Source: Archangium violaceum (GTDB lineage Bacteria; Myxococcota; Myxococcia; Myxococcales; Myxococcaceae). Taken from it: a stretch of DNA of 64,000 nucleotides. The position numbers were made by a program, and so were the translations under genes. Position 1 is the first letter of the stretch; the number at the start of each line of letters is the position of its first letter. The stretch lies in contig NZ_CP069396.1 of NCBI RefSeq assembly GCF_016887565.1, positions 3,871,001 through 3,935,000 on the forward strand. The letters are read 5' to 3'. Shown here piece after piece: positions 50,431-57,095 of this stretch. The notes beneath the pieces are model-generated. The model saw only the letters and a list, made by a program, of their open reading frames with translations. It searched no databases and was not told the origin of the DNA.

Positions 50431-50513
50431 TGACTTTCGGTCCGGTGCTTGACGGGGAATGGAGGGATGTGTTTCCTGTTGTATGAAAGCGATTGGGAGC
50501 AGGGGGAATTGTC

Positions 50514-52622
50514 ATGCAGGGAATCACGGAAGGGCTGACGAGTCTTCCGACGGGTGCCGCGAGGTCGGTCACCGGTCCGTACTCGGGGTACTCGCTCCAT
50601 GGTCCGGGTGGCATCCAGGTGGTGCTGCCCGAGCAGGGGGCGGTGCTGGGCCGGGCGACGCTGCTGAGCCCCACGACGGTGTGGACCCTGTCCGGGAGCG
50701 TGGCGGACACGCTGATGCACGAGCGGACGCTGCGGGTGTGTCTGGACGCGGGTGGGACGACCATCGGCCCACTGGTGGGAGAGGCCCGGTGGAGTGATGC
50801 CGGGGAGCGGGGCACCGCGCTGGGCATCCAACTGCTGGGCATCTCCGCGGAGCAGGGACGGCAAATCCTGTCATTGTTGGATGACGCGGTCCTCCGAGGC
50901 AGCGCCGAGCCCGAGGCCTCGCCCCTGCCGGTGCAGGAGGAGATCTCCGGAGGCGAGCGCATCGAGTCCATCCTCACGGCCATCTCCGCCATGAGCAACA
51001 AGGGCGTGCTGCGCCGGCCGGGCCGGACGGTGCGGGTGGCGTTGGAGCGTCTGGACGCCGAGGCGGGCCTGCTGCACTGGCGTTGCACCGAGCCGGGGGG
51101 CGAGTGGGGCGAGCCGCCCTATGAGCTCGAGGTGATGGGTTACAACTCGGCCTATCGGATGCGCCTGGCGGGGCCCGTGGCCGACGGGGAGCGGCTGGTG
51201 ACCCGGCTGCCCGAGCGGCTGTGGCGGGTGCGTCACCGCTGGCACCGCCGCGTGCCGGCGCCCCCGGGCCTGCGGGCCCGCTTCGACCATCCACTCTGGA
51301 GGGAGCTGGGGCGGCGGGAGCGTGAGATCGTCGACGTCTCCTTCTCCGGCCTGGCCGTGCGCGGTGGGAGCGATGACCTGATCTTCCCGGGCCTCATCCT
51401 GCCCCTGGAGGTGGAGACGGCGGAGGGTGAGTCCATCTACCTGAGCGGGGAGGTGCGTCACGTGTCGTCCGCGCGGAGCGACGGACGGCGGGTGTTCGGT
51501 CTGGAGGTCCGGCCGGTGACGGAGCGGGACGCGGTGGAGTGGACGCGCCTCGTCTCGCAGTCGCTCTGCCCCAGCACGCGCACCAGCGAGGAGCTGCTCG
51601 AGCCGCTGTGGGACCTGTACGTCGCCTCGGGCTACTTCAACCTGGCGGGCAAGTCCTCCGAGCACTTCGCCGAGCTCCGCCGGAGCTTCATCGACCTGGG
51701 CAGGCGGGCGGCGCAGCTGCCGCGGCTCTTCTGCCAGACGGTGTGGCCCTCGGAGCGGGGCGTGGAGGCGTCGCTCTCCTCGCTGAAGCCCTACCGGTAC
51801 TCCTGGATGCTGCACCAGCTCGGGCGGCGGCCCGGGCGGCCGGAGAACGCGCCCCACGTGCCGGGGCAGATCCTCCGCGACACCTACCTGCGCACGCTGG
51901 AGCACTCGCAGAGCGACCCCGAGTTCCGGTGGATGTTCTGCTACGCCGAGTCCACCGTGCCCTGGATGTACCGGACGCACCTGCGGTTCGTCCAGCGGAT
52001 GCAGGACGGCGGGCAGTCGCTGGTGATGCCGCTGCGGATGATGGACGTGGAGTGCGGCGAGCCGAGCGGGCAGATCCGCCCGGGGGACCTGGACATCGGT
52101 CCCGCGTCGATTGGCGAGAAGTACCTGCTGGCCAGCCAGATCGCCCGCACCCGCCCGGCCTGCTACGTCGAGGCGCTGGACTTCACCCGCGACCGCCTGG
52201 AGCTGTGGGGCGTGTCCCGGGCCTGGCAGGGGGCGGGGCTGGAGCGCGAGCGGCGGATCCTCGTGGCGCGCCGCCAGGGCATTCCCTTGGCCGCGCTGGT
52301 GCTCGAGCTGGGGCACCCCGGGACGAACCTCTTCCGGCTGCTCGATGCCGCGCGCCTGTTCCCGCTGTCTCCGGACGGGCGGAGCGCCTACGTGGCGCTG
52401 CTGGACGAGGCGCGCCGCTGGTTCGCGCTCCGGGGGCGAAGCACCTTCGTCTACCTGTGCGAGGACGGCGGCGAGTACGCGAAGGCGGCCCGGCTGCACG
52501 ACGACCCCTCGGCGCAGCCCTGTCTCTGGATCATCCCCGCCACCCTCGTCCCCGAGTTCCTGGAGCACATCCACGAACAGTCCGTCGGCAGTCCCCAGCA
52601 GAGCACCTCTCACCACGCTTGA
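50514..52622 (+). CDS. PilZ-domain protein with acyltransferase-like C-terminal half
   Basis: A 702-residue cytosolic protein, ATG at 50514 behind AGGGGGAATTG. Two N-terminal beta domains (about 20-125 and 150-360) belong to the PilZ/YcgR type: the second has an Arg-rich entry (RHRWHRR, 240-246) and D274-V-S276-F-S-G279, the two motifs that bind c-di-GMP. The last 330 residues (about 365-690) look like a pair of GNAT-type acyltransferase folds (AELRRSFIDLGRRAAQLPRL, later RRQGIPLAALVLELGHPGTN); the catalytic site was not identified. Binding of c-di-GMP could therefore gate an acyl transfer or a degenerate relative of it (inference). It is followed 20 bp later by a haem-oxygenase-like gene with a strong ribosome site, so the two probably act together. 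Confidence 0.7.
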   Translation: MQGITEGLTSLPTGAARSVTGPYSGYSLHGPGGIQVVLPEQGAVLGRATLLSPTTVWTLSGSVADTLMHERTLRVCLDAGGTTIGPLVGEARWSDAGERGTALGIQLLGISAEQGRQILSLLDDAVLRGSAEPEASPLPVQEEISGGERIESILTAISAMSNKGVLRRPGRTVRVALERLDAEAGLLHWRCTEPGGEWGEPPYELEVMGYNSAYRMRLAGPVADGERLVTRLPERLWRVRHRWHRRVPAPPGLRARFDHPLWRELGRREREIVDVSFSGLAVRGGSDDLIFPGLILPLEVETAEGESIYLSGEVRHVSSARSDGRRVFGLEVRPVTERDAVEWTRLVSQSLCPSTRTSEELLEPLWDLYVASGYFNLAGKSSEHFAELRRSFIDLGRRAAQLPRLFCQTVWPSERGVEASLSSLKPYRYSWMLHQLGRRPGRPENAPHVPGQILRDTYLRTLEHSQSDPEFRWMFCYAESTVPWMYRTHLRFVQRMQDGGQSLVMPLRMMDVECGEPSGQIRPGDLDIGPASIGEKYLLASQIARTRPACYVEALDFTRDRLELWGVSRAWQGAGLERERRILVARRQGIPLAALVLELGHPGTNLFRLLDAARLFPLSPDGRSAYVALLDEARRWFALRGRSTFVYLCEDGGEYAKAARLHDDPSAQPCLWIIPATLVPEFLEHIHEQSVGSPQQSTSHHA

Positions 52623-52642
52623 GTTCACAAAGGAGCAACATC

Positions 52643-53386
52643 ATGGAGCTGCTGAAGAAGCTGTACGAGCCTCACACCCTCCTCGCGCGCAGCCGTCTGG
52701 ATTCCGACTCCTCCATCCGCCGGCTGTTGGATCCGTCGCTCAAGCCCATCGTGCTCGAGCGCTTCCTCATCGAGTGGATGGCGCGCGCCTCGTACATGAC
52801 CGAGCCCGTGGACGGGTGGATCCGCCGCACGGGGCAGCGCTGCATCGAGCAGGGCATGGAGCGGCTGGGCCAATCGCTCATCACCCACGCGAAGAGCGAG
52901 ACGGGCCACCACTTGATGACCATCGAGGACGCCCGCGCCCTGGTGCTCCACTGGAACGGGCGGCACACGCCCCAGCTGAACATGGAGCAGCTGCTCGGGC
53001 AGACGCCCACCGAGTCCATGAAGGAGTACCGCCAGCTGCACGAGGAGACCATCGAGGGCCCGTACCCGGTGGGGCAGATCTCCATCGAGCGGGAGATCGG
53101 CTTCCTGGCCGTGCACTTCGGGCCGCGGATGATGAAGCAGGTGGAGAACGTCCTGGGCAAGGAGGTCGCCGACAAGCTCACCTTCCTGGCCGAGCACGTG
53201 GCGGTGGACGTGGGCCACACGCTGCTCAATGAGAAGATGCTCGAGGATGCCATCACCCGCTCGCCCGAGAACGCGCGCATCTACGCGGAGACCGGCGCCC
53301 GGGCGATGACGACGTACATCCGCTTCCTCGGTGACTGCCTGCACATCGCGGAGGATCTGCTGGCGCCCCTGCGCGCCGTGGCGTGA
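52643..53386 (+). CDS. Haem-oxygenase-like diiron oxidase (HDO) family protein
   Basis: A 247-residue all-helical soluble protein. The ATG at 52643 follows AAAGGAG; a longer in-frame extension exists but runs through the PilZ gene. The diagnostic HDO signature is H185-x3-D189-x2-H192 in the C-terminal helix, with E86 and H89/H90 in THAKSETGHH and E149/E151 in SIEREIG as the other probable iron ligands. HDO enzymes (such as CADD, UndA, SznF) activate oxygen for decarboxylations, N-oxidations or cofactor synthesis. Substrate unknown; pairing with a c-di-GMP/acyltransferase-like protein suggests modification of an acylated metabolite. Ligand assignments are by pattern and spacing. It converges on the oxidoreductase gene with 4 bp between stops. 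Confidence 0.72.
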   Translation: MELLKKLYEPHTLLARSRLDSDSSIRRLLDPSLKPIVLERFLIEWMARASYMTEPVDGWIRRTGQRCIEQGMERLGQSLITHAKSETGHHLMTIEDARALVLHWNGRHTPQLNMEQLLGQTPTESMKEYRQLHEETIEGPYPVGQISIEREIGFLAVHFGPRMMKQVENVLGKEVADKLTFLAEHVAVDVGHTLLNEKMLEDAITRSPENARIYAETGARAMTTYIRFLGDCLHIAEDLLAPLRAVA

Positions 53387-53390
53387 GTCG

Positions 53391-54425
53391 TCAGGATGGC
53401 TCGGGCACCGCGCGGAGGAGGACGATCTTCCCCCGGACACCTCCGCGCTCGAGCAGCTCCTGGCCGGCCCGCCCCGACAGGAGCGGCAGGCGGTGCGCGA
53501 TGAGGGGCTCCACCTTCCGCTCCGCCAGCAGCTCGAAGAGCCGGGGGAGATCCTCGCGGAACGGCTTTGGATCCTCCCGGTAGAGCTGGGTGATGCCGTA
53601 GAAGGCGGAGCGGCGGCCCCGGAGCCGTGTCCCCACGAAGAGGGACGCCATGCCCAGGAAGGTGCCCAGGTTGTCGCTGCTCCCGTCGCGGCCCACCGCG
53701 CTCGTGAAGCCGTAGGAGACCACCTGCCCGCCCTTGCGCACCGCGCGCGCGCACAGGGTGATGTTTCCTCCGCCAATGCCGTCGAAGGCCACGTCCACGC
53801 CCTCGGGGACGAGCTCCCGCACTGTCTGGTCGAAGGGGCGCTCCTTGTAGTCGATGAACCGCGCGCCCTGGGCACGGATGGCTTCGCTCTTGGGTGGAGA
53901 GTCCACGCCGAACACCTCGGCACCGGCCACCCTCAGCAGTTGGAGCAGCGCCGTGCTCACGCCTCCTCCCGCTCCCGTCACCAGCGCACGCGTGCCCCGC
54001 TGCACCCGGGCCACGCGGTGGATCATCTGGTACGCCGTCACGTAGTTGAGGATGAGCGCGGTCACCTCCGCGTCATCGAGGCCGTCTGGTACGGGGATGA
54101 ACTCCTCCGCGCCCCGGGTCATGAACTCCGCGCAGCCACCGTGGACCGTCAGCGCCGCCACACGCTGGCCAACCCGGAGCCCGGTGACGCCGGGGCCGAT
54201 GGCGTCCACGTCCCCGACGACCTCGTAGCCGGGGGTGAACGGAAACCGGGGCGCGTAGGGGTAGTAGCCGCGCCGCATGATGATGTCGGTGAAGCCGACA
54301 CCGGTGGCGCGCACGCGCACGCGCACCTGGCCGGGACCGGGTGGCTCGAGCGGCAACTCCCTCAGCTCGAGCGCCTCGGGGCCGCCCTTCCTCGTCAACA
54401 GGACCGCACGGTAGGTGGAAGTCAT
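53391..54425 (-). CDS. Zinc-free medium-chain NADPH:quinone-type oxidoreductase
   Basis: A 344-residue MDR enzyme. Residues 1-120 form the GroES-like domain (FTPGYEVVGDVDAIGPGV); the Rossmann domain follows with ALVTGAGGGVSTALL where the family has AxGGVG. Zinc ligands of alcohol dehydrogenases are missing, so a quinone/enone reductase using NADPH is expected. The ATG at 54425 fits; the frame runs open for another kilobase upstream, an artefact of GC-rich composition. It is divergent from a LysR gene with a 66-bp shared region containing a perfect dyad, so that regulator probably controls it. Confidence 0.9.
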   Translation of the reverse strand: MTSTYRAVLLTRKGGPEALELRELPLEPPGPGQVRVRVRATGVGFTDIIMRRGYYPYAPRFPFTPGYEVVGDVDAIGPGVTGLRVGQRVAALTVHGGCAEFMTRGAEEFIPVPDGLDDAEVTALILNYVTAYQMIHRVARVQRGTRALVTGAGGGVSTALLQLLRVAGAEVFGVDSPPKSEAIRAQGARFIDYKERPFDQTVRELVPEGVDVAFDGIGGGNITLCARAVRKGGQVVSYGFTSAVGRDGSSDNLGTFLGMASLFVGTRLRGRRSAFYGITQLYREDPKPFREDLPRLFELLAERKVEPLIAHRLPLLSGRAGQELLERGGVRGKIVLLRAVPEPS

Positions 54426-54469
54426 GTGTGAGGAATTAGCGCCGCCGCCGATGGGCGTCGATGCGCAAG

Positions 54470-54490
54470 CGTGCAATACTGCGTTGCACG
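54470..54490. promoter_or_regulatory. LysR-type operator in the divergent promoter
   Basis: Perfect inverted repeat CGTGCAA-TACTGCG-TTGCACG, ending one base before the LysR start codon and 45 bp upstream of the oxidoreductase. This matches the layout of a LysR autoregulatory site that also activates the divergent gene. Confidence 0.65.
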
Positions 54491-54491
54491 T

Positions 54492-55367
54492 ATGCAGGCG
54501 ACGAGCTGGGATGATCTGCGCTTCTTCCTCGCCGTGGCGAAGCACGGGACGCTGGCCACGGCCGCCCGTTCGCTCGGCGTGAACGCCTCCACCGCCGGGC
54601 GCCGCATCCAGGCACTGGAGAAGTCGTTGCGCGTGAGGCTCTTTCTTCGCACGCGCGAGGGTTTGCGTCCATCGGCCGCGGGCGAGCAGCTCCGGCAGCG
54701 GCTGGCGAAGCTGGAGCCGGAGCTGACGCGTCTCATCGGAGGCGAGCTGACGCCGGCCGAGGCCGTGGCCGGCACGGTGCGCATCGCCACGACGGAGGCC
54801 CTGGCCGCCTATCTGGTGGATCGCGGGTTGTGCGCGCTCAAGGACGAGCACCCGGGGCTGGTCCTGGAGCTGCTCGGAGGCAACCGCCCGGTGGACCTGG
54901 CTCGCGGCGAGGCGGACATGGCCATCCGGGTCACGAAGCCCGAGGGCGCCAACCTCAAGGTGAGGCAGCTCCAGGCCCAGGCCTTCGGGGTGTACGGGTC
55001 GGCGGGCTACCTGCGGCAGCGGGGCCGGCCACGTGGCGAGCGCGAGCTCGGGGGTCATGACCTGGTGGTGGTGGGCGGTGAGCTCGGTGCGCTGCCAGAG
55101 GCGCGCTGGATGGAGGGGCACCAGGGCGCTCGCATCGTCCTGAGGACGAACAGCATGCCCGCGCTCCTGGCCGCCGTCCGCAACGGGGTGGGGCTTGGAG
55201 TGCTGCCGAGCGGGTGGGCCCAGGTCGAGCCGGATCTCGAGCGTCTCTTCGAGGTGCCGGAACTCCCGCGTCGGCCCATGTGGTTGGTCATCCAGCCCGA
55301 GGCCCACGAGCGCGCCGCGGTCCGGGTCGTGGCGGCGCGTCTCAAGGAATTGCTGGACCCGGCCTAG
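54492..55367 (+). CDS. LysR-family transcriptional regulator
   Basis: A 291-residue regulator. The winged HTH covers about 4-63 (DLRFFLAVAKHGTLATAARS, then NASTAGRRIQALEKSLRVRLF); the effector-binding domain runs from about 85 to the end. The ATG at 54492 is chosen because an ATG 21 bp earlier lies inside the operator dyad. Typical pairing: the regulator senses a quinone or electrophile and controls the divergent oxidoreductase and itself (inference). Length and domain order are normal. Confidence 0.9.
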   Translation: MQATSWDDLRFFLAVAKHGTLATAARSLGVNASTAGRRIQALEKSLRVRLFLRTREGLRPSAAGEQLRQRLAKLEPELTRLIGGELTPAEAVAGTVRIATTEALAAYLVDRGLCALKDEHPGLVLELLGGNRPVDLARGEADMAIRVTKPEGANLKVRQLQAQAFGVYGSAGYLRQRGRPRGERELGGHDLVVVGGELGALPEARWMEGHQGARIVLRTNSMPALLAAVRNGVGLGVLPSGWAQVEPDLERLFEVPELPRRPMWLVIQPEAHERAAVRVVAARLKELLDPA

Positions 55368-55391
55368 CGCGGCCCTTGTCGAGGATTGCCC

Positions 55392-55577
55392 ATGCCACCC
55401 ACCGTCATCCGCTCCCCCCGAGCCCTCCTCCTCGCCACGGCCTTCTCGGCACTCGGGCTCGGCGCCTGCGTGCAGGAGTGTGAGTTCAAGCCCCATTGCG
55501 AGGGAAACGTCGTCATGGATTGCCCTCTTCGCTCAGGGCTGCCATGTGGACGCCGCGCTGGGCACAGCCGTCCGTGA
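55392..55577 (+). CDS. Short Cys-rich lipoprotein, possibly a remnant
   Basis: A 61-residue open frame with a convincing lipoprotein signal (hydrophobic core 11-24, LGLGAC with C26) and then CVQECEFKPHC, five to six cysteines in total, ending abruptly in basic residues. No ribosome site is obvious. Myxobacterial Cys-rich lipoproteins usually continue for hundreds of residues, so this is either a genuine micro-lipoprotein or the start of a decayed gene. The next 320 bp contain no gene. Confidence 0.4.
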   Translation: MPPTVIRSPRALLLATAFSALGLGACVQECEFKPHCEGNVVMDCPLRSGLPCGRRAGHSRP

Positions 55578-55743
55578 CTCGCAACGAATTTCGACTCCCG
55601 CGTCTCTCCCAGTCGCGACGCTCGTCACCTTGCTCCTCGCGCGGGCTTCGACGCGGTGTGTTGATTGAGTGACAAAAGTGTTGGATGATCTTTGGCACCT
55701 CAAACGTCCGCGAGTCGCGGACCGCTGAAGGAGTCAAAGACAC

Positions 55744-55810
55744 ACGCGCTGGTGCAATCCCTGCCGGCAATCGGGGTCGAGACCCGATTGGCGCAGCAGG
55801 GGAACCGCGT
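55744..55810 (+). other. Nested inverted repeats, candidate structured 5' leader RNA
   Basis: Three nested stems are collinear: ACGCG/CGCGT, CCCTGC/GCAGGG and CAATCGGG/CCCGATTG around the 7-base loop GTCGAGA, with asymmetric internal loops. All 19 base pairs are Watson-Crick. It lies 88 bp before the polysaccharide-lyase start and is not part of any gene. Possible roles are a riboswitch-like or protein-binding leader, or a transcription attenuator. It matched no riboswitch consensus that could be recalled. The rest of the 55578-55898 gap shows an AT-richer stretch near 55668-55700, possibly promoter-containing. Confidence 0.45.
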
Positions 55811-55898
55811 CCCGAAGATCTGAACCCTCATCCACCGGCCGCCGCGCGCGGTCCGGACCCACTCGTCGTCTGTCGACATTTCCTGGAGAGCCCCTGAC

Positions 55899-57095
55899 GT
55901 GAAGAAGACCCTCCTCTTGGCTGAAGCGCTGTTCGTCCTCGCTGGTATCGGCTGTGGTGGAAACCCCGATGACCTGGTTTCCAATTCCAACGAGCCGGGT
56001 GAATCCCTCGCGGTCTCATCCGAGGCGTTGACCACGCAGAACTGCGCGCAGCTGACGGCCAACTCGGTGATCGACAACGGCAACGATGGCAACCTCCCGA
56101 CCAACACGCTCGATGACCTGGCCGACACGCGCTGGAGCAGGTTCGGCAGGGACTCGTGGATCGACTACGACCTGGGCTCGGTGCAAACCCTGACGGGAGT
56201 GGCCATCGCGTGGCACCAGGGCAACGCGCGCGCCAGCGAATTCTCGGTCTCCGTCTCCTCGGATGGGCTGAGCTACACGTCCGTCTACACCGGGAAGAGC
56301 ACTGGCACGACGACGGCGGCGGAGACGTACTCCTTCGCTGCCCGCGCCGCGCGCCGCCTGCGCATCTACGTCAAGGGCAACACCGTGAACGAGTGGTCGA
56401 GCATCGCGGAGGCCCGCGTGTGCGGAACGTCCTCGACCGGCGGCGGCACCGGCTCCGGCGTGGTGTGGCGCGGTGACTTCGAGACGGGTGACCGCTCCCA
56501 GTGGTCCAAGACGCAGATGGTCAGCGCGGACCGGCTGCAGGTGCTGTCCTCCCCCACGCGTCAGGGCAGCTACGCCATCAAGGTGACCGTGAAGCAGGGG
56601 GACAACCCCATCAGCGCCAGCGGCAACCGCAACGAGCTGGTGCGGATGACGAACGAGAAGGAAGGCGACGAGTACTTCTACCGCTGGAACACGATGTTCG
56701 CCTCGGACTACCCGAGCGCGAAGACCTGGCAGCTCTTCACCCAGTGGCACCACTCCGGCGACAGTGGTTCGCCGCCGGTCGAGTTCTACGTCAATGGTGA
56801 GACGATCTACCTGCGCCTGCAGGGGAGCAACGTGGTGTGGAGCAGGCCGCTGGTGCGCGGGCAGTGGCTGGACTTCATCTTCCACGTGAAGTGGTCGGCC
56901 AAGTCGAGCGTCGGCTTCGTCGAGCTGTACGTCAACGGCCAGCTCGTCCTGCCCAAGAAGTACTCGGCCACCCTGTACAGCGGGATGACCAACTACCTGA
57001 AGGTGGGCCTGTACCGGAACAGCACCATCGCCCCGACCGGCGTGGTGTACCACGACGGGTGGATCCAGGGCCGCAGCCTGGCGGACGTCCAGTAG
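55899..57095 (+). CDS. Secreted lipoprotein polysaccharide lyase with discoidin (F5/8C) domain
   Basis: A 398-residue lipoprotein with GTG start behind CTGGAGAGCC. Lipobox LAGIGC gives C19. A Ser/Glu-rich spacer is followed by an F5/8 type C (discoidin-like) carbohydrate-binding domain at about 45-175 (WIDYDLGSVQTLTGVAIAWH, later RRLRIYVKGN). A Gly/Ser linker leads to a beta-jelly-roll lyase of the heparin-lyase I / PL20-like superfamily at about 187-398 (GDFETGDRSQW, RNELVR, WQLFTQWHHSG, YLKVGLYRN, VYHDGW). It probably cleaves acidic polysaccharide such as uronic-acid polymers at the cell surface; the exact linkage is unknown. The only gene here with a long, structured leader. Confidence 0.82.
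   Translation: MKKTLLLAEALFVLAGIGCGGNPDDLVSNSNEPGESLAVSSEALTTQNCAQLTANSVIDNGNDGNLPTNTLDDLADTRWSRFGRDSWIDYDLGSVQTLTGVAIAWHQGNARASEFSVSVSSDGLSYTSVYTGKSTGTTTAAETYSFAARAARRLRIYVKGNTVNEWSSIAEARVCGTSSTGGGTGSGVVWRGDFETGDRSQWSKTQMVSADRLQVLSSPTRQGSYAIKVTVKQGDNPISASGNRNELVRMTNEKEGDEYFYRWNTMFASDYPSAKTWQLFTQWHHSGDSGSPPVEFYVNGETIYLRLQGSNVVWSRPLVRGQWLDFIFHVKWSAKSSVGFVELYVNGQLVLPKKYSATLYSGMTNYLKVGLYRNSTIAPTGVVYHDGWIQGRSLADVQ

Follow-up and report, generated by a model that had tools for sequence, protein, structure and literature searches.

A Hairpin in the Predicted 5' Leader of a Myxobacterial Polysaccharide Lyase Gene Appears to Be Kept as a Folded RNA

Introduction

Structured 5' leaders of bacterial mRNAs include the 5' stabiliser hairpins of the ompA type, the leaders processed by RNase III, and the riboswitches and other cis-regulatory leaders collected in Rfam. 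The ompA leader of E. coli, a 5' stabiliser, combines a stem-loop near the RNA 5' end with a long leader and a gene for a surface or secreted protein. In stabilisers of this type, the fold is kept and the loop sequence is variable. RNase III-processed 5' leaders carry a long, irregular, untranslated hairpin with internal loops. Riboswitches and Rfam cis-regulatory leaders are structured, covarying elements linked to the gene that follows. To our knowledge, few gene-specific RNA leaders have been described for myxobacteria.

Here we describe hairpin 2, an element in front of a polysaccharide lyase gene in a 13.2-Mb, single-contig genome of Archangium. It lies in a 64-kb stretch of DNA, hereafter called the window. 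The lyase leader shares with the ompA type a stem-loop near the inferred 5' end, the length, the surface or secreted product and the variable loops. Hairpin 2 itself begins only after ~50 nt of the inferred RNA, a sequence relation to ompA-type stabilisers is not known, and a stabilising role is a prediction here. Hairpin 2 shares with RNase III-processed leaders the long irregular hairpin with internal loops and the untranslated state, and cleavage here is putative. Like riboswitches and Rfam leaders, it is a structured, covarying and gene-linked element of a 5' leader. Unlike them, it has no Rfam match, no loop core common to the two genera that carry it, and no recognisable expression platform. 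The hairpin 2 leader adds a new RNA element to a known type, the cis-acting structured 5' leader. No published description of this lyase leader was found in the portion of the literature that the search made available. A covarying leader that Rfam lacks and that belongs to a single family of secreted lyases is a compact reporter system, which could address the post-transcriptional control of secreted enzymes in these predators.

Organization of the Lyase Leader

The features of the locus are listed in Table 1. The match of the lyase to Polysacc_lyase has an E value of 1.1e-49, and its N-terminal start reads as lipoprotein-like. By sequence, the 11 solved relatives that were found cover the F5/8 part only, which in these structures belongs to alginate lyases, to glucanases or to CBM32 domains solved in isolation. 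Of 145 genomes searched in the order, 87 have a relative of the lyase.

Table 1. Positions of the leader elements and neighbouring genes in the window
Feature	Position	Strand	Description
LysR-type regulator	54471-55367		Upstream of the lyase leader
Promoter-like site TTGATT-17-GATGAT	55661-55689	+	Conserved as TTGATT-17-GATGnT in 10 of 10 orthologs
Hairpin 1	55706-55722	+	7-pair stem, ~10 nt from the inferred RNA 5' end
Conserved AAGGAGTCAAAG	55728-55739	+	Between hairpins 1 and 2
Hairpin 2	55744-55810	+	Three nested stems, asymmetric internal loops
Hairpin 2, stem 1	55746-55753 with 55804-55810	+	7 pairs, U55750 bulged
Hairpin 2, stem 2	55759-55766 with 55792-55801	+	8 pairs, 2-nt bulge at 55794-55795
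Hairpin 2, stem 3	55768-55775 with 55783-55790	+	8 pairs
Hairpin 3, GC-rich	55835-55856	+	Fold 3' of hairpin 2, ahead of the ribosome site
GGAGAG, Shine-Dalgarno-like	55885-55890	+	14 nt ahead of the start codon
Lyase gene, GTG start	55899-57095	+	398 aa; F5/8-type C domain and Polysacc_lyase (PF14099)

Because the promoter-like site is conserved, we infer that transcription starts near 55696, 5' of hairpin 2. The mRNA would then have a 5' leader of ~200 nt with three hairpins. A scan with the sigma-70 consensus did not report the site at 55661-55689. A looser pattern, TTGAnn-17-(G/T)AT(G/A)nT, fits 40 of 65 lyase leaders, a set that includes duplicates. The 25 leaders without it are 18 from Corallococcus, which have another conserved sequence, TTGTGTYCGAAATA, at the promoter position, and L043, L047, L049, L070, L076, L077 and L078. 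Related sequences, TTGAGT/TTGAAT-17-GATGCT/GATACT, precede the paralogs and the lyases with Myxococcus-type leaders. This paralog/Myxococcus pattern has eight matches in 96 genomes, all immediately 5' of lyase genes, in a narrow test where the pattern does not match the site at 55661-55689 itself. A pattern made from the leader tail matches twice in 39 genomes, each time at an orthologous lyase, and this test is likewise narrow, as the hairpin 2 locus itself was missed. In four Myxococcus-type leaders (L042, L044, L046 and L054), GGGCAGGCAGGC and CAATTACAA(T/C)C stretches were seen by eye 5' of the promoter-like site; they are possibly transcription-factor sites.

Fold and Stability of Hairpin 2

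The best fold of hairpin 2 has a free energy of -36.7 kcal/mol (z -3.70), and one of 200 dinucleotide shuffles was equally good. It contains 23 pairs, 22 Watson-Crick and one G-U, and the loop between stems 1 and 2 is asymmetric, with 5 nt (55754-55758) on one side and 2 nt (55802-55803) on the other. A sequence-only reading of this DNA had proposed 19 Watson-Crick pairs in three nested stems with asymmetric loops; the stems and loops stand, and the pair count is higher. The same reading had noted that no T tract follows, and this is borne out: the stem is followed by CCCGAAGATCTGAACC, and a scan of 55360-55960 gave no terminator-like site. Its description of the gap as otherwise empty was mistaken. 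The gap also holds the conserved promoter-like site, the two other hairpins and what is probably a decayed gene remnant.

The window is 70% GC, and 86 of 6394 67-nt windows of its + strand (step 10) are as stable as hairpin 2, so its stability alone is unremarkable. When only windows with a GC content within 0.04 of that of hairpin 2 are counted, 11 of 3272 are as stable. The case for hairpin 2 rests on comparison across genomes, stability alone being common here.

The ten orthologs used for comparison come from every available genome of two genera: six of Archangium (g1), the source genome included, and four of a second genus (g6), which we take to be Cystobacter. Against its own shuffles, each of the ten hairpins has a z between -2.17 and -4.35, and between 0 and 5 of its 200 shuffles reach the same stability. 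When the full leaders were folded, the mean pair probability of hairpin 2 was 0.71-0.96 in nine orthologs and 0.37 in the remaining one (L038). Hairpin 2 is thus predicted to fold independently within the full leader in nine of ten orthologs. Stem 1 is displaced relative to the alignment in three of the ten.

Conservation and Covariation

In all ten genomes of the two genera, the orthologous lyase gene is preceded by hairpin 2 in the same position. The orthologous leaders can be aligned from the promoter-like site through the start codon. Compared with its nearest relative, the leader is 86-97% identical depending on the segment, with hairpin 2 the lowest (79/92), and identity is 68% over the 293 nt that precede the promoter. 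Between hairpins 1 and 2, GGAGTCAA is invariant in all ten orthologs. GGAG-type motifs were seen by inspection in many, but not all, other leaders of the family. In several leaders, the GGAG motif may pair over a long range with codons 4-8; the motif is invariant in the orthologs and these codons are nearly so.

The other hairpins are less regular. Hairpin 1 is present with two-sided pair changes in seven of ten orthologs, and gaps are seen in the other three, one of which (G046) has a short stem around AAGGA in its place. Hairpin 3 is absent in two of the ten (G047 and G073). The 5' internal loop of hairpin 2 is of the GCAA type in five of six Archangium genomes, GAAGA in the sixth (G047), and ACAUC or ACAUU in the second genus. 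As far as these alignments go, the pairing of hairpin 2 is better kept than its loops.

The hairpin alignment (10 rows, 9 distinct) was scored over 21 pairs, or 186 cells, of which 91.9% are paired, against 37-48% when the partner was slid. Two-sided changes that keep pairing occur in 5 of 21 pairs (reached by 2 of 500 shuffles) and in seven cells (0 of 500); there are 19 further pair types, a number reached by 3 of 500 shuffles, and none of the 500 reaches the covariation score of 0.265. These shuffles ignore relatedness, so that the counts out of 500 are not probabilities; the ten orthologs are close relatives, and the scored structure derives from the same sequences. The covariation term of RNAalifold is -0.36 for hairpin 2, +0.39 (unfavourable) for the whole leader, and -1.36 for the Corallococcus leaders described below. 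The covarying structure on the mRNA strand that characterises a structured 5' leader is present, at modest size.

The pair types bear on the strand of the folded molecule. Over the 17 RNAalifold pairs, the + strand cells are 120 Watson-Crick, 33 G-U, 2 A-C and 11 other. When stem 3 is defined from the source sequence only, the other nine rows give 49 Watson-Crick, 17 G-U, 0 A-C and 2 other. The cells of the Corallococcus structure are 261 Watson-Crick, 22 G-U, 4 A-C and 13 other. Because G-U is tolerated and A-C hardly is, the folded molecule is most likely the sense RNA, neither DNA nor an antisense transcript. Hairpin 2 appears to be evolutionarily kept as a folded RNA leader. The sequence-only reading had proposed covariation analysis as a check on a cis-acting structured leader transcribed from 5' of 55810. 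The conserved position in all ten genomes and the covariation speak for the structured leader and disfavour the outcome of no covariation; for the start 5' of 55810, the promoter-like site gives an indication by inference.

Distribution of Hairpin 2 and Related Leaders

The lyase query has six to at least 12 matches per genome in the ten genomes of the two genera, and at least 12 in the source genome. Judged by sequence, the lyase of these genera belongs to a large paralog family. A covariance model (R1) was built from the ten ortholog leaders and searched in 96 genomes of the family. For this and the second model below, stricter filters were used and the best 45 or 48 candidates per genome were scored, so that weak copies could escape. 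R1 matched its own ten source leaders at E 1.1e-19 to 2.8e-12, and beyond them it gave no match below E 0.03 in the 96 genomes. Leaders of paralogous lyases come next, with E values of 0.0375, 0.04 and 0.554; outside lyase leaders, there are six weak matches with E 0.12-0.63. By this search, no convincing copy of hairpin 2 is seen away from the lyase family among the 96 genomes.

In Corallococcus, a different hairpin is found in the same slot, with its own covariation and with loops that differ from those of hairpin 2. The Corallococcus alignment shows 94.3% of 300 cells paired, two-sided change in 6 of 25 pairs (0 of 500 shuffles) and a covariation score of 0.207 (0 of 500); further pair types are no better than in shuffled alignments (147 of 500). 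The slot hairpin contains 18 of the 25 pairs and four of the six with two-sided change, and the preceding hairpin contains the other seven and two. Folding of four Corallococcus hairpins gave z of -2.91, -1.49, -2.15 and -1.21. A second covariance model (R2), built from 12 Corallococcus leaders, matched before the lyase at E 4.9e-16 or better in 15 of 16 Corallococcus genomes, most of which are sources of the model. In the sixteenth (G060), the match is weak (E 0.038), and the lyase lies at the contig coordinates of L116. The leader of L116, from Corallococcus interemptor, has the slot-hairpin segment deleted. The remaining R2 matches are weak, with E values no lower than 0.006, and with a limit of E 1 the model matches somewhere in 42 of 96 genomes. 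As two genera carry different hairpins in this slot, the importance of fold versus sequence becomes testable.

Myxococcus-type leaders are shorter, and inspection of the 17 that were aligned showed no counterpart of hairpin 2; the leader alignment left out L043 and L047. One of these leaders (L046) also has no hairpin 1. Hairpin 2 is absent from the leaders L063 and L076. L063 is a second lyase copy in the source genome (G000:C1:3723658-3724833, minus strand), in which, by inspection, hairpin 2 is gone from a leader that otherwise keeps its promoter-like site, its tail and hairpin 1. The corresponding copy in G045 (L062) has hairpin 2, and the two make a natural deletion pair. Since hairpin 2 is missing in L063, L116 and L076 and not seen in Myxococcus-type leaders, it is not essential. 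Hairpins 1, 2 and 3 are individually absent in some leaders; therefore, the leader is modular.

Proposed Role and Alternatives

The reading that we prefer, which may equally well prove right or wrong, is that hairpin 2 is a module of a structured lyase mRNA leader, transcribed from the site at 55661-55689, and acts through its fold alone. The leader RNA would be transcribed from this promoter-like site, and hairpin 1 would shield its 5' end. Hairpin 2 would be an independently folded stem that sets the lifetime of the mRNA, possibly through a cut by RNase III, and it may also insulate the long leader against mispairing. A role of the fold only is favoured because the loops vary, hairpin 2 is predicted to fold independently, access to the ribosome site is unchanged, and neither a terminator nor CsrA is found. 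The mean predicted access of the ribosome site is 0.341 both with and without hairpin 2, and it ranges from 0.05 to 0.51 between leaders with the hairpin. The mean predicted openness of the start region is 0.513 with hairpin 2 and 0.484 without it, a small change.

It is possible but doubtful that some RNA-binding protein or small RNA of myxobacteria recognises hairpin 2, perhaps together with the GGAG motif, and tunes translation or decay of the lyase mRNA up or down. The restriction of convincing hairpin copies to the lyase family and the invariance of GGAGTCAA in the orthologs are consistent with such a regulator. So is the 3' arm TGGCGCRACGGGAGRGCYG, which is found exactly, among the matches listed, at three orthologous and two paralogous lyase leaders whose 5' arms differ. 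The 3' arm of hairpin 2 itself is not among the TGGCGCRACGGGAGRGCYG matches at up to two mismatches, and thus the motif is not kept here; elsewhere, with up to two mismatches allowed, it is about as frequent as the reversed control. Also against a regulator are the loop letters, which differ between the genera, and the loss of hairpin 2 from some paralogs with otherwise similar leaders. CsrA is the best known binder of GGA. Control by CsrA was rejected, as none of 39 relatives, the source genome among them, gave a PF02599 match (controls were positive in 3 of 14). The sequence-only reading had suggested metabolite sensing or regulator binding; loop variation, unchanged ribosome-site access, the negative CsrA search in the 39 relatives and the paralog losses do not support this, and what is left of it is the doubtful case of some other regulator.

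A broader version of regulation is unlikely. It holds that the three-hairpin leader is a device dedicated to controlling myxobacterial polysaccharide lyases after transcription. A lineage-specific RNA-binding protein or small RNA with a part in predation or development would read hairpin 2, and the hairpin modules would be swapped between genera while the slot is kept.

Neutrality of the stable hairpins in this GC-rich leader, which would then be tolerated structures gained or lost without function, seems quite unlikely. Equal stability is indeed common locally, some family members lack one hairpin or another, RNAalifold gives small covariation terms, and the hairpins of three Archangium paralogs (L065, L066 and L068; z 0.13, 0.10 and -0.18) are no better than their own shuffles. 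The two-sided changes that keep pairing in two genus groups and the bias of G-U over A-C, however, point to selection on RNA, and the slot is kept in all ten genomes of Archangium and the second genus and in 15 of the 16 of Corallococcus.

A metabolite riboswitch controlling the lyase, as the sequence-only reading had envisaged, is very unlikely. The inferred 5' leader of a single enzyme gene, the asymmetric internal loops, the covarying stems and the GCAA-type 5' loop of most Archangium genomes would suit one. The change of this loop in G047 and in the second genus leaves no conserved unpaired core. By prediction, neither a terminator nor sequestration of the ribosome site provides an expression platform, the access of the ribosome site being unaltered by removal of hairpin 2. 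The Rfam scan that the same reading had proposed was run and gave no relevant family at strict or loose thresholds. With Rfam 15, there was no match in the window at the gathering cut-off, and a loose scan of 55368-55960, to E 10, gave just three chance matches to unrelated families (E 1.6-9.8). In 20 related loci, eight matches up to E 5 were found, to tRNAs and unrelated families, none of them in the leader.

The 5' arm of hairpin 2 resembles the anti-Shine-Dalgarno sequence in some orthologs. A ribosome-site switch was rejected, as in 0 of 14 leaders did the 5' arm pair better, at the 5% level, with the real site than with shuffled sites (mononucleotide shuffles).

A leader-peptide attenuator, in which the hairpin region encodes a short peptide that controls the lyase through its translation, is hardly credible: a GTG-started frame runs through hairpin 2 behind a Shine-Dalgarno-like AAGGAG in the source sequence, yet one-base gaps, and stops in several rows, break the frames across the ten orthologs, and the idea was rejected as no short reading frame is conserved over them. 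An intrinsic terminator was also rejected, since the scan of 55360-55960 found none and the stem has no U tract.

Region Upstream of the Leader

In 55391-55640, one frame has a signal-peptide-like start, and the end of another frame resembles the end of a longer protein that sits upstream of the lyase (L034) in G046. This region is probably the remnant of a gene for a small cysteine-rich lipoprotein, decayed by deletion and frameshift. In G045 (L033), the protein that adjoins the leader upstream ends like the gene at 50493-52622. It appears that ~2.9 kb (52623-55550), including the LysR gene, is missing in G045 or inserted here.
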